From Gallaecimonas kandeliae (GTDB lineage Bacteria > Pseudomonadota > Gammaproteobacteria > Enterobacterales > Gallaecimonadaceae): DNA of 64,000 bases. Under the pieces are notes generated by a model that saw nothing but the letters and a program-made list of their open reading frames with translations, was not told the origin of the DNA and made no database searches. The stretch is from the NCBI RefSeq assembly GCF_030450055.1, contig NZ_CP118480.1, positions 833,415 through 897,414 on the forward strand. The letters are read 5' to 3'. The translations under genes were made by a program, and so were the position numbers. Shown here piece by piece: positions 22,356-53,972 of the stretch. The first letter of the stretch is position 1; every line of letters begins with the position of its first letter.

Positions 22356-22490
22356 AAGAAAGCCAAAGCCTGCGGCAGCAAAAGAGCTAAATGGGTCCGC
22401 AGAGTGAAGCCATCCTGGCGGCGCATTCCGGCTCGCACGTCCTGTGTGCTCGCGTTCGGCTGCGCGAAAGCCGTGCTTTCACTTCGAGCC

Positions 22491-25181
22491 TCACCCCACC
22501 AGCCCTTGCCGCCCAACCTCTTCATCCAACTTATCCATCTCGTCGATCAGCTCAAACACCTCGGGCTCGACGTCCGAGGTGGCGGCGCCTTTCTTGAGTT
22601 GGGTCTCTATCTCGTGGGCGAGGTTCTTGAGGCGGGGCGTACCGGTATAGGCCAGGGCGCCGTTGAACTTGTGCACCGCCTGGTAGAGGGCATCAAAGTC
22701 GGCCTCGGCCAGGGCCTTTTCCAGGCCCTCCCGGGTCTGGGGCAGGCTGTCGATGAGCATCTTGACCATGTCCTTGGCCAGGGCCTCGCGGCCGCCGGCC
22801 TGGCGCAGGGCCTGGTCCCAGTCCAGCACCACCGGCTTTTTCAGCCAGCGCAGCAGGGTGGCGTGCAGGGTGCGCTCGTCGATGGGCTTGGTGAGGTAGT
22901 CGTCCATGCCCTTTTCCAGCAGCTTCTCCCGCTCCCCGGCCATGGCGTGGGCGGTGACGGCGATGATGGGCGGGCAGCCCTGGCCGAGGCGCTCGCGGAT
23001 ATGGCCCATGGCCGTGACCCCGTCCATGCCCGGCATCTGGATATCCATGAAGATGGCGTCGAAGGGCCACTTCTCCACCGCTTCCAGGGCCTGGAGGCCG
23101 CTGTTGGCGCAATGGACCTCGCAGGGGCTGTCTTCCAGCAGGGCGCTCATCAGCTTGAGGTTGGGGCTGTTGTCGTCCACCACCAGGATGCGCCCCGGCG
23201 GCAGGGGGGGCAGGGCGCTGGGATGGCGCAGCGCCGGCAACTGCTGGCTGGGCTGCTCTCCCACCAGGGCCCGGTAGAGGCGCGGCGCCGTCAAGGGCTT
23301 GACCAGGCAGATGTCCAGGCCCTGGGCCAGCATCCGTTCCCGCACCTGGGGATCGGCGTGGTTGGACAGGCCGATGATCCTGGCCTCTGCGGGCTTGTCG
23401 AGGCGGGCCAGCAGGGCGGTCAGATCCTGCTGCTCAAGCTGGTCCAGCAGCACGAAGTCGGCCTCGGGCATCAGGGCCGGATCCTCGGTGGTCTGGAGGC
23501 TGAAGGGCCAGCTTTCCATCAGCAAGGTCAGCATGCGGCGGGTGCGGCGGCTGCCGCCCACCAGCGCCACCGTCTTGCCTTCCAGGGGGGCCATGGGCAA
23601 GGGGTCGTGGAAGACCATGGCGGCCTTTTTCACCGGCAGGCTGAACCAGAAGGTGGAGCCCTTGCCCACCTGGCTCTCCATGTCCATCTGGCCCTTCATC
23701 TGGTTGACCAAGGTCTTGGAGATGATGAGGCCGAGGCCGGTGCCGCCGAAGCGGCGGGTGATGGAGGCGTCGGCCTGGGCGAAGGCGCTGAAGAGGTACT
23801 GCTGCTGCTTGGGATCGATGCCGACCCCGGTGTCGGTGACGGTGACGCGGATCTCGCAGCCCTCGTCTTCCTGGCAGTCGTGGCTGACGATGATGTCGAC
23901 GCCGCCGGCCTGGGTGAACTTGACGGCGTTACCCACCAGATTGGTGAGCACCTGCTTAAGGCGCAAGGCGTCGCCCATCAGGGAGTCGGGGGTGTCGGGG
24001 GGCAGGTGCAGGCACAGCTCCAGGCCCTTGTCGCGGGCGTTGGCCCCCATCATGTCCACTACCTCGTAGAGGGCGTCGTGGAAGCTGTAGGGGGTGTTGT
24101 CCAGCTTGAGCTTGCCGGCCTCGAGCTTGGAGAAGTCCAGCACGTCGTTGATGATCGCCAGCAGGTGCTGGGCCGAGCGCTCTATGGTCTGCAGGTAGTC
24201 GGTCTGGCTGGGGGTGAGCTGGGTCTTCATCAGCTGGCGGGCAAAGCCCAGCACGCCGTTGAGCGGGGTGCGCAGCTCGTGGCTCATGTTGGCCAGGAAT
24301 TCGGATTTGACCTGGCTGGCCTCCTGGGCGCGCTTGCGGGCCTTGTCCAGTTCGATGTTCTGGATCTCCACCTGCTCCAAGGTCATGCGCAGGTCGTAGG
24401 TGGCCTGGTCGATGTTGTGCTGCATGTCGGCATGGTATTCGTCCAGGGACTTGGCCATGGCGTTGATGCCGCTCTTGAGGGTGTCGAGCTCGCCGATGAG
24501 GATGCCTTGGACCCGGGTGTCCAGCTTGCCTTCGCGGATGCGGTCCACCGCGTGCACCATGTTGGAGATGGGGTCGGTGACGTGCTTGAGCAGGCGCCAG
24601 GTGAAGAGCAGGTGCACCATGACGCCGATGAAGACGATCAGCAAGGTGCGGAACAGGGCCTCGTGCTGGGCCACTATGGTGGAATCCTGGTTGAGCTGGA
24701 TGGCCACATAGCCCAGCACCGGATCCTTGGGATCGATCTTGTCGCGGTAACTGGCGTAGAAGCTGGTGTCGGCCATGATCGGCGCCCGCAGCATCAGCCG
24801 CCCTTCGACATAGGCGAAGGTGGGGATCTGGGGTATGGGCTCGCCCGGGGGCAGCTTCATCAGCGGGAAATCGCGGTGGAAGGTGGAGGACACCATGGGG
24901 GTGCCCTGCTTGTCGTAGACGGCGATGTTGCGGATGGCTTCGGTATTACGCCTGTGCACGGCGCTGACCAGGCGCTTGAGCTGCTCGCGGTCTTCCAGCA
25001 CCAGGCCGGGCTCGGCCGCCACCGTCAGCGGCGCTATGACGGCAAGCCCCTGATCTTTGAGGTGTTGCAGTACCTCTTGGTAACGTTGCAGGGTAAAATA
25101 CCCGCCCAACAAGGTGCCGATGAGCAACGTTGGTGCCAGTGTCAGTATCAGTACCCAGGCGCGAAGGCCAAATTTGGTCAT
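22491..25181 (-). CDS. barA: Hybrid sensor histidine kinase BarA
   Basis: A tripartite membrane kinase of 896 residues that phosphorylates UvrY and so drives the CsrB/CsrC small RNAs. Order of parts: membrane helix (about 8-28), periplasmic sensor region, second helix (about 180-200), HAMP, dimerisation/phosphoacceptor domain ([15 protein letters not shown]), ATPase ([16 protein letters not shown]), a degenerate receiver-like region, a true receiver (ILVVDDN and [11 protein letters not shown]) and a C-terminal HPt domain ([13 protein letters not shown]). I start it at ATG 25181; the open frame runs far upstream but would swallow the rlmD promoter region. It is divergent from rlmD, as in E. 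coli. CsrA, its downstream target, is also in this window. Confidence 0.96.
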
Positions 25182-48375: not shown

Positions 48376-50997
<2,622 letters not shown>

Positions 50998-52314: not shown

Positions 52315-52509
52315 ATGCTGATTCTGACCCGCCGTGTCGGCGAAACCCTGATGATCGGAGATGAAGTCACCGTTACCGTCCTGGGCGTGAAAGGCAACCA
52401 GGTGCGTATAGGCGTCAACGCACCCAAGGAAGTCTCGGTCCACCGTGAAGAGATCTACCAGCGTATCCAGGCTGAGAAAGATCCCAACGATCTCGACGGC
52501 AACTACTGA
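52315..52509 (+). CDS. csrA: Carbon storage regulator CsrA
   Basis: A 64-residue dimeric RNA-binding protein that binds GGA motifs near ribosome sites and controls central metabolism, motility and biofilm. The opening [18 protein letters not shown] and the RNA-binding [12 protein letters not shown] are intact. An AAGGAG site precedes the ATG by seven bases; because it contains GGA, self-repression is possible. BarA at 22-25 kb is the likely upstream kinase of the same circuit. Confidence 0.98.
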
Positions 52510-52663: not shown

Positions 52664-52754
52664 GGTGAGGTGGCCGAGAGGCTGAAGGCGCTCCCCTGCT
52701 AAGGGAGTATGGGTCAAAAGCCCATCGGGGGTTCGAATCCCCCCCTCACCGCCA
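52664..52754 (+). tRNA. tRNA-Ser (anticodon GCT)
   Basis: A 91-base class II tRNA with encoded CCA. The acceptor arm is GGTGAGG/CCTCACC with discriminator G; the anticodon GCT is at 52698-52700; a long variable arm (TATGGGTC...GCCCATC) and the T-arm GGGGGTTCGAATCCCCC are present. It reads AGC and AGU codons. It is the first gene of a small tRNA cluster. Confidence 0.97.
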
Positions 52755-52770
52755 TCGACACTTTCAAGAT

Positions 52771-52847
52771 GCGACCATAGCTCAACTGGATAGAGTACCT
52801 GGCTACGAACCAGGCGGTTGGAGGTTCGAGTCCTCCTGGTCGCGCCA
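52771..52847 (+). tRNA. tRNA-Arg (anticodon ACG), copy 1
   Basis: A 77-base tRNA with encoded CCA. Acceptor GCGACCA pairs with TGGTCGC; the anticodon loop is CTACGAA with anticodon ACG (A34 is normally edited to inosine to read CGN codons). The first of three nearly identical copies. Confidence 0.97.
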
Positions 52848-52892: not shown

Positions 52893-52903
52893 GTCTGAAG
52901 ACT

Positions 52904-52980
52904 GCGACCATAGCTCAACTGGATAGAGTACCTGGCTACGAACCAGGCGGTTGGAGGTTCGAGTCCTCCTGGTCGCGCCA
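52904..52980 (+). tRNA. tRNA-Arg (anticodon ACG), copy 2
   Basis: A 77-base tRNA identical in sequence to copy 1, with encoded CCA. It follows a hairpin with a T-run, so its expression depends on read-through or an unseen promoter. Confidence 0.97.
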
Positions 52981-53004
52981 TTCAGACAACACAATCCGAC
53001 ATCT

Positions 53005-53081
53005 GCGACCGTAGCTCAACTGGATAGAGTACCTGGCTACGAACCAGGCGGTTGGAGGTTCGAGTCCTCCCGGTCGCGCCA
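53005..53081 (+). tRNA. tRNA-Arg (anticodon ACG), copy 3
   Basis: A 77-base tRNA differing from copies 1 and 2 by a compensating pair at the base of the acceptor arm (GCGACCG with CGGTCGC). Its 3' end is the version repeated in the downstream 278-bp units. Confidence 0.97.
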
Positions 53082-53359
53082 TATATCAAAGGCCCGCTTT
53101 CATAGCGGGCCTTTCTCGTTCTAGGGCCCATTGCAGATCCCTCTGGGCACTCTTCGCTTTGCTTTGATGTTGAGATCCGGTTTCCCATGGCGATTGGCCT
53201 TAGTCCGCCCCTAGCGGTCAGGCAGGCCGGTCCCATGCTCGGAGAGGATGGTGGGGAGACCTTCCCTGGTGGAACGTCCAGGCCACCCATCCAGAGGCGG
53301 CCGCTCACCGGCGTCAAGGCAGCGCCTTGACTTCGAGGTTCGCCCTCCCGGTCGCGCCA
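53082..53359 (+). repeat. 278-bp tRNA-tail repeat, unit 1
   Basis: Starts directly after the CCA of tRNA-Arg copy 3 with a terminator hairpin (AAAGGCCCGC pairs with GCGGGCCTTT, 53088-53114). It ends with a tRNA-Arg 3' remnant, GAGGTTCG then CCCTCCCGGTCGCGCCA (53335-53359). Unit 2 follows with the same length and only a few differences. An arginine-rich frame (MVGRPSLVERPGHPSRGGRS, then RSPASRQRL) begins at 53248 and crosses into the next unit; it has no ribosome site and I do not call it a gene. Confidence 0.9.
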
Positions 53360-53637
53360 TATATCAAAGGCCCGCTTTCATAGCGGGCCTTTCTCGTTCT
53401 AGGGCCCATTGCAGATCCCTCTGGGCACTCTTCGCTTTGCTTTGATGTTGAGATCCGGTTTCCCATGGCGATTGGCCTTAGTCCGCTCCTAGCGGTCAGG
53501 CAGGCCAGTCCCATGCTCGGAGAGGATGGTGGGGAGACCTTCCCTGGTGGAACGTCCAGGCCGCCCATCCAGAGGCGGCCGCTCACCGGCGTCAAGGCAG
53601 CGCCTTGACTTCGAGGTTCGCCCTCCCGGTCGCGCCA
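53360..53637 (+). repeat. 278-bp tRNA-tail repeat, unit 2
   Basis: Near-identical to unit 1, with scattered single-base changes (for example CCGCCCCTAG becomes CCGCTCCTAG). Terminator hairpin at 53366-53392 and tRNA-Arg 3' remnant at 53613-53637. The same arginine-rich frame recurs from 53526. Confidence 0.9.
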
Positions 53638-53682
53638 TATGTCAAAGGCCCGCTTTCATAGCGGGCCTTTCTCGTTTTAGGC
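53638..53682 (+). repeat. Partial third unit of the tRNA-tail repeat
   Basis: The first 45 or so bases of the unit recur, including the terminator hairpin (53644-53670), and then similarity stops at TTTTAGG. So the array has two full units and a truncated third. Confidence 0.85.
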
Positions 53683-53735
53683 TGCCTGCGACCCTTCGTG
53701 CAGGGCAAAGCCGCTTTAAGCCGCACCATCGATGG

Positions 53736-53762
53736 AAAAGCCCGCTTATCGAGCGGGCTTTT
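53736..53762. terminator. Distal terminator after the repeat array
   Basis: AAAAGCCCGCT (53736-53746) pairs with AGCGGGCTTTT (53752-53762), with further T on the plus side and A on the minus side; it also suits the small minus-strand gene next to it. Confidence 0.8.
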
Positions 53763-53795
53763 TGCGTTTGGGCCCAATTGGCCTGCCTGGGCTGG

Positions 53796-53972
53796 CTACT
53801 GTTGGTAACTCGTCACCCACAGCATCAGCGACATGAAGGCGATCAGTAAGGCGGAGAGGCCGAGGATCCAGTAGAAGCCGACCTTGCCACGGCTGAGGGG
53901 AATGCGGAAGTAGTTGATGGCCAGCCACCACAGCAGGCACAGCACCAGGGGGAGGAGAAAGAGTCTGCTCAT
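53796..53972 (-). CDS. Small two-helix membrane protein
   Basis: A 58-residue protein from ATG 53972 with AAGGA just upstream. Two hydrophobic segments are visible: FLLPLVLCLLWWLAINYF (about 4-21) and YWILGLSALLIAFMSLML (about 33-50). No family recognised; a frame extension to a TTG at 54005 is possible but unsupported. It converges with the tRNA cluster and is divergent from gshA. Confidence 0.55.
   Translation of the reverse strand: MSRLFLLPLVLCLLWWLAINYFRIPLSRGKVGFYWILGLSALLIAFMSLMLWVTSYQQ

Follow-up and report, generated by a model that had tools for sequence, protein, structure and literature searches.

The tandem array behind the third tRNA-Arg(ACG) gene in a 64,000-nucleotide stretch of the Gallaecimonas kandeliae genome (the window) probably consists of tRNA-linked repeats (TLRs) that formed when an element, R1, inserted with duplication of its target and the product was then amplified in tandem. 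R1 is dispersed and folds into a structure supported by covariation, and from its right end direct duplications extend both at tRNA genes and at sites without them. What is new here is a TLR body that holds such a structured dispersed element with flank duplications, which hints at the origin of TLRs.

Structure of the array behind tRNA-Arg(ACG)

The features, in window coordinates, are the following.

52315..52509, + strand: csrA, upstream neighbor, given for context (Pfam CsrA, 93.2 bits)
52664..52754, + strand: tRNA-Ser(GCT) (ARAGORN, Rfam)
52771..52847, + strand: tRNA-Arg(ACG) 1 (ARAGORN, Rfam)
52904..52980, + strand: tRNA-Arg(ACG) 2 (ARAGORN, Rfam)
53005..53081, + strand: tRNA-Arg(ACG) 3, whose tail is repeated downstream (ARAGORN, Rfam)
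53066..53125, + strand: direct repeat X, copy 1, made up of tRNA 3' tail, spacer and hairpin (repeat search)
53088..53114, + strand: terminator-like hairpin, copy 1, with an interrupted T-run (absent from the terminator scan list)
53126..53259, + strand: left part of the unit body, resembling by eye other mosaic modules of the genus (as read from the sequence)
53260..53345, + strand: dispersed element R1, copy 1, with its CTTCGAG..CCC end to the right (G000:C1:886674-886759, 81.8 bits)
53344..53403, + strand: direct repeat X, copy 2, with the tail at 53344-53359 (repeat search)
53538..53623, + strand: R1, copy 2 (G000:C1:886952-887037, 86.4 bits)
53622..53681, + strand: direct repeat X, copy 3 (97%), beyond which the flank is not repeated (repeat search)
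about 53736..53762, no strand given: further terminator-like hairpin (reading of the sequence)
22410..22496, + strand: another R1 copy of the window, away from tRNA genes (G000:C1:855824-855910, 97.2 bits)

A direct repeat of 278 nt dominates the region, with 53066-53343 and 53344-53621 being 99% identical and a third copy of 60 nt at 53622-53681; read as units from 53083 to 53360 and from 53361 to 53638, the copies show 3 mismatches over 278 positions. Chance falls far short of explaining 278 nt repeated at 99% identity, and the preliminary description was right that two full units and one partial unit follow the last tRNA-Arg. It was right, too, that every unit opens with the same hairpin (AAAGGCCCGC..GCGGGCCTTT), which lies at 53088-53114, 53366-53392 and 53644-53670. 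The 25-base remnant of tRNA-Arg that it assigned to each unit, in contrast, shrinks to an exact copy of 16 nt that includes the CCA (CCTCCCGGTCGCGCCA) and ends at 53359 and 53637. The nine bases ahead of this tail (GAGGTTCGC) are merely T-loop-like; they belong to the unit body, where they correspond to the conserved right end of R1 (CTTCGAGNYTCRCCC). The shared block runs on beyond tRNA-Arg 3 through the hairpin and totals 60 nt.

Judged by position and sequence, the hairpin at about 53736-53762 probably corresponds to the terminator that stands singly behind the last tRNA-Arg of three congeners (G001, G002, and G004). Because it looks like the terminator of these array-less relatives, everything from 53083 to 53735 appears to be extra sequence. 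Elsewhere in the window, at 49886-49983 on the minus strand, ARAGORN reports a tRNA-Lys(CTT) that lies inside a long alaS-like frame, is absent from the Rfam result and is probably false.

R1 is a dispersed element with a covarying fold

When the unit was searched against its own genome, six partial matches appeared outside the array, four of them with ends at positions 263-267 of the unit and the other two with ends at 243-245, and the 3-kb loci fetched for these six hold no tRNA gene. The common right end of the R1 family, the CTTCGAGNYTCRCCC named above, occurs in fetched 3-kb loci also at sites without a tRNA gene. A covariance model built from 20 copies describes an element of ∼88 nt. With this model we counted, at E up to 0.001, at least 32 copies in the window's genome (G000) and at least 14, 11, 34, and 7 in the four congeners G001 to G004, respectively, giving at least 98 in the five species; these are lower bounds because only 150 of the 1751-2916 first-look candidates per genome were scored. 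Of 59 genomes in a wider set, six gave matches; the sixth of them, G023 from another family, has a single weak one.

In the R1 fold 97.9% of 420 alignment cells are paired, compared with 29-54% in slid controls, and 12 of the 21 pairs are changed on both sides. None of 500 shuffles came as high on four of the five covariation measures, and the fifth, further pair types, did not rise above the shuffles, 319 of 500 of which reach it. The structure was derived from the alignment on which it was tested, which favors the fold; the covarying fold of R1 is well supported. Loop 2 keeps TCC, that is GGA on the other strand, in 72 of the 74 regular copies.

R1 is not a known Rfam RNA, as a scan of the window returned four tRNAs only and no family at or above its gathering score fell on R1 in seven R1 loci (E up to 1). 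An association with terminator-like hairpins on the left of R1 was likewise set aside, the counts of 15 vs 11 of 81 copies giving no convincing enrichment. Some copies lie near JUMPstart-type leaders of presumed polysaccharide operons (L010, L012, and L132 at 39.8, 34.0, and 22.4 bits, with a gathering score of 35), and others are close to 5S rRNA genes (L118 and L009).

Direct duplications begin at the right end of R1

We compared the 60 nt that follow the right end of R1 with the 400 nt on its left, at a score cut-off of 34, in 81 distinct copies (105 R1 matches less 18 low-scoring ones and 5 merged duplicates left 82, and one contig-edge copy without upstream sequence was removed). Sixteen of the 81 copies, at 13 loci, scored at least 34, and in all 16 the match begins no more than 2 nt from the R1 right end; the other 65 have no flank duplication. 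The matches are 21 to 60 nt long, 60 nt being the length compared. The upstream copy carries the last two letters of R1 or more in 15 of the 16 duplicated cases, which is partly trivial inside tandem arrays.

Markov-resampled upstream sequence reached the cut-off in 0 of 1620 trials. Within the same loci, the next 60 nt downstream match upstream in 6 of 81 cases and the segment 120-180 nt downstream in 4 of 81, four matches starting within 2 nt in each control; we put these down, tentatively, to continuing arrays. Pairing the downstream and upstream flanks of different loci (1230 pairings) gave a 95th percentile of 24, a 99th of 49 and a maximum of 120, and such matches can be high because the loci share repeats.

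Seven of the 13 duplication loci are at tRNA genes, namely those for Arg (G000 and G003), Ala (G000, G002, and G003), Ser(GGA) (G003), and Phe (G023), the repeated piece at tRNA-Phe being the 5' part of the tRNA. The other six are elsewhere. The cleanest of these is L212 in G003, at which dtd (Tyr_Deacylase, 185.4 bits) has its last codons and stop repeated in the arrangement X-R1-X-R1-X; at L211 the duplicated flank is a terminator. Only these two are clean among the six, because L170 and L198 sit inside other repeats and are less clear, and L179 and L233 lie in leaders whose JUMPstart-like sequence is below the gathering score (as judged from L132 and L012, which overlap them).

Probable recurrence at the same tRNA genes

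A comparison with relatives, which the preliminary description had proposed, found the array missing at this tRNA-Arg from three of the four congeners. In G001, G002, and G004 a single tail and a single terminator follow the last tRNA-Arg, and in G003 one R1 copy and one tail copy follow the third tRNA-Arg. Apart from its tandem partner, no copy shares more than 76% identity with the R1 at the tRNA-Arg of G000, whose six nearest copies do not include the G003 tRNA-Arg copy. Since the G003 copy is not the nearest relative of the G000 copy, recurrent insertion at tRNA-Arg is probable. At tRNA-Ala, the 91% identity between the R1 copies of G000 and G004 points to probable inheritance; the G002 and G003 copies reach no more than about 81% with these two. 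On such sequence comparisons, R1 has probably inserted repeatedly and separately at the same tRNAs.

Extra tail copies at other tRNA genes

We counted as an extra tail any further copy of the last 13 nt of the cognate tRNA with at most one mismatch. All 81 tRNA genes of the window's genome fall in 31 stretches, 9 of which carry 18 extra copies of their own tRNA tail; as a control, there were 11 non-cognate matches over all other stretch pairs. For the genus, taken as G000 plus parts of the four congeners (whose tRNA loci are a selection among the matches listed of 305), 30 of the 108 tRNA loci examined carry 79 extra tails, with 1, 1, 0, and 1 non-cognate matches in the four congeners. The numbers become 28 of 108 loci and 76 tails once three matches that are doubtful by eye are dropped (L332 position 32, a tRNA truncated where the locus ends; L339 position 1768, coding-like; and L376 position 350, a damaged tRNA-like sequence). 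Among 30 loci fetched from six genomes belonging to other families, 7 have extra tails, from just two clusters, one of degenerate tRNA-Lys copies (G009) and one with an RtT-type unit behind tRNA-Tyr (G018). A genus rich in tail repeats is not exceptional, because E. coli has ten such loci.

Of the 79 extra tails in the genus, the 7 with R1 directly before them are found at tRNA-Arg(ACG), Ala, and Ser(GGA); R1 hence accounts for the tRNA-Arg array and not for all tail repeats. The remaining tails have other bodies, many of them GC-rich hairpins, some with tRNA pieces to the left of the hairpin. Behind tRNA-Arg(CCT) in G002 there are seven tandem units, mostly of 142 nt and each with a tRNA tail end (L366, G002:C9:113280-114460), and behind tRNA-Trp in G004 six tandem units of ∼115 nt (L387, G004:C14:106650-107830), to which two units of similar body in G000 are related (L309). 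At L306 (G000:C1:2486900-2490570) the 5' part of tRNA-Lys, a 5' and not a 3' remnant, is present in three copies between intact tRNA-Lys genes. A near-identical GC-rich stretch (ACCTCGGCGGCCCC or close variants) occupies the T-loop position of degenerate tRNA-Asn (L356, L340, and L377) and tRNA-Phe (L352 and L372) units, as would result from insertion of a small hairpin.

Comparison with TLRs and other known systems

E. coli K-12 has 22 TLR genes at ten loci, which are identical over 18-19 bp at the 3' end to the upstream tRNA or rRNA (PMC8144298). According to the same source, TLRs have been described in this species since 1978 (Egan and Landy 1978 and Rudd 1999, as cited in PMC8144298), and tyrT/rtT is one TLR locus. 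From its sequence, the tRNA-Arg array is a new case of this class, the class itself being already known. As in E. coli, the units stand directly downstream of a tRNA of the same cluster, here tRNA-Arg 3, follow each other in tandem, each end in a tail copy, and adjoin terminator hairpins. The 3'-end identity within the tRNA is 16 nt in two copies, slightly under the 18-19 nt of E. coli, and unlike there it extends downstream through the hairpin. The window's array further differs in its genus and its tRNA, and in a body that holds a dispersed element found also at non-tRNA sites with flank duplication.

The preliminary description had likened the array to the E. coli tyrT distal repeats, the source of RtT RNA (RF00391). 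The likeness of architecture holds, in that both have tandem units with a tRNA tail end and the tRNA is broken at the T-loop/T-stem boundary; the tandem GA motif reported for RtT (PMC8250186) can also be seen by eye in R1. Membership in the RtT RNA family, however, fails. The unit measures 278 nt, compared with about 178 nt between successive tyrT tails, and the covariance models match in neither direction: that of RtT (gathering 45) found nothing on 52900-53800 up to E 5, with four E. coli units at 132.9-137.5 bits as the positive control, and that of R1 gave one 12.1-bit match on the E. coli tyrT locus, outside the repeats, and none that is convincing. The array unit as a member of RtT was rejected on this result.

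RtT-type units do stand behind tRNA-Tyr at L395 (G018, 45.5 bits) and behind tRNA-Glu at L369 (G002, 40.1) and L303 (G000, 24.4). In these three the left end before TGAGAA is, by eye, largely complementary to the respective tRNA tail, and it differs between Tyr and Glu. Among E. coli genomes, 4695 of 5426 have RtT-unit-like places, 1 to 14 per genome with a median of 3.

Two further systems invite comparison. RrA, RrB, and RrF of the E. coli rRNA operons are likewise TLRs between two terminators of a stable-RNA operon; they are linked to rRNA and not to tRNA, and their transcription and binding of CsrA and Hfq have been demonstrated, whereas the window's array is known from sequence. With BIME/REP interspersed repeats R1 shares the general features of being short, structured, intergenic, and present in many copies, and it differs from them in the long direct flank duplications at some of its copies and in the lack of a Y1_Tnp match in the window's genome. 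Elements similar to rtT are stated to belong to BIMEs (PMC2965389), and rttR is listed among REP-bearing sRNAs (PMC12306157). Because PMC2965389 likens rtT to BIME elements, the tie between TLR bodies and interspersed repeats had been noticed earlier in E. coli.

Transcription and function

The array was found to contain no promoter-like site, and the terminator scan does not list its first two hairpins, whose T-run is interrupted. Given the lack of such an internal site and the weakness of these hairpins, low read-through from the tRNA promoter would be the likeliest route of transcription. In E. coli, terminator read-through gives rise to RrA, RrB, and RrF, which bind CsrA and Hfq, and RNase E is suggested to recognize the RrB tail copy (PMC8144298); by analogy, it may recognize the tail copies of the window. 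By the account of the same paper, no function was known for TLRs until it studied the three rRNA-linked ones, an earlier functional claim for the tyrT repeat having been retracted. In Actinobacillus pleuropneumoniae, northern blots have revealed RtT-family RNAs that lie next to tRNA genes (PMC4986893).

The preliminary description had suggested that the products of the units carry tRNA-like ends. Single folds of several units do look like minihelices, but the tails pair no better with their own bodies than with shuffled ones (combined p = 0.82 over 16 of the 18 tails of the window's genome); the idea of the tail as a tRNA-like acceptor stem was rejected as unproven, and the suggestion is left without support. 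In the same test, two genuine E. coli tRNA-Tyr genes each gave the lowest possible value, 0.016, and four E. coli tyrT repeats gave 0.15-0.74. Binding of CsrA by a read-through product is not favored because the conserved GGA of R1 sits on the strand opposite to the tRNA transcript. With regard to cellular function beyond read-through processing, our default reading is that the array is a by-product of insertion.

Formation of the array

In the order of events that we infer, a copy of R1, together with about 130 further bases on its left, would have inserted beside the 3' strand of the tRNA-Arg T-stem and duplicated the 60 bp of tail and hairpin (X) to give X-element-X. Unequal crossing-over, that is recombination between X copies, would then have doubled the X-element unit once more, with tRNA-Arg itself left intact throughout. 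A minority of tRNA transcripts would read through the weak first hairpin and then be cut at the tail copies, perhaps by RNase E as suggested for RrB. The preliminary description had also considered that the array grows through recombination at the tail. Direct repeats of 60 nt would permit such growth, whereas the first formation looks like insertion of an element with target duplication.

Telling against insertion are the 65 of 81 R1 copies that lack a flank duplication, the upstream matches of other segments in the same loci and between different loci, the clean non-tRNA cases numbering only two, the 7 of 79 tails to which R1 is limited, the varying match lengths (21 to 60 nt), unlike those of usual transposons, and the search for a mobilizing enzyme, which identified none. 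At the Pfam level reverse transcriptase (RVT_1) has 0 matches in G000 and is matched in two of the five genomes of the genus (G001 and G002), and the RAYT-type transposase Y1_Tnp, also with 0 matches in G000, is matched in two of the five (G002 and G003). Thus neither a Y1-type transposase nor a reverse transcriptase encoded in the window's genome is supported as the mover of R1, and R1 is not assigned in G000 to the REP/RAYT-type or the retroelement-mobilized repeats.

The main rival to insertion traces the tails to tandem duplication of tRNA-Arg genes, the copies having later lost their 5' parts by decay or replacement, with no insertion and no target duplication. Tandem tRNA genes are common here, the Asn, Gly, Asp, Ala, and Met units keep, by eye, pieces of the variable loop and of the T-stem 5' strand left of a GC-rich hairpin, and the tRNA-Val units are about as long as a tRNA plus spacer and have a degenerate anticodon arm; for other tRNAs of the genus decay may well be right. 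To the left of the tRNA-Arg junction, however, nothing is tRNA-like and R1 is found instead, and the same R1 junction duplicates the 3' end of dtd and a terminator. For the array itself we therefore consider decay rather unlikely.

Less likely again is that the units are selected small-RNA genes, whose read-through products would have tRNA-like ends that bind processing enzymes or would bind CsrA or Hfq as RrA, RrB, and RrF do. The read-through and protein binding of these E. coli RNAs (PMC8144298) and the northern-blot detection in A. pleuropneumoniae (PMC4986893) are precedents for this, and the covarying fold of R1 and the TCC kept in 72 of 74 copies fit it. Against these stand the tail pairing that equals that of shuffled bodies (combined p = 0.82), the position of the conserved GGA opposite to the tRNA transcript, the missing arrays at this tRNA in three of four congeners, and the CsrA-binding prediction of PMC8144298, in which 19 tRNA-operon TLRs scored under 0.01. 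A tyrT-type member of the RtT family that moved to another tRNA would explain the shared architecture and tRNA breakpoint, and RtT-like units occur in the genus behind tRNA-Glu (40.1 bits in G002 and 24.4 in G000, gathering 45); with no RtT match up to E 5 in 52900-53800 and just 12.1 bits for R1 on the tyrT locus, outside the repeats, this origin is very improbable.

Implications for the origin of TLRs

Extending the insertion of R1 at tRNA-Arg to the whole class, we put forward tentatively, as a possibility, that TLRs are footprints of small non-coding structured mobile elements that lack evident terminal inverted repeats, have a fixed right end, join at CC, and duplicate roughly 20-60 bp, often in the tRNA T-arm. 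R1 would be one such family, and its enzyme would be neither Y1-type nor a reverse transcriptase of the window's genome, at the Pfam level. More than four decades have passed since TLRs became known, and the parts of the TLR literature that we consulted contain no account of their origin. Following one element at tRNA and non-tRNA sites, with duplications that start from one fixed end, makes a concrete origin, by insertion and a long duplication of the target, open to test. It also calls for caution, as a tRNA tail alone is no evidence of tRNA-like function; if the mobile-element reading is true, the tail of a TLR would be a target-site duplication and not a selected signal.
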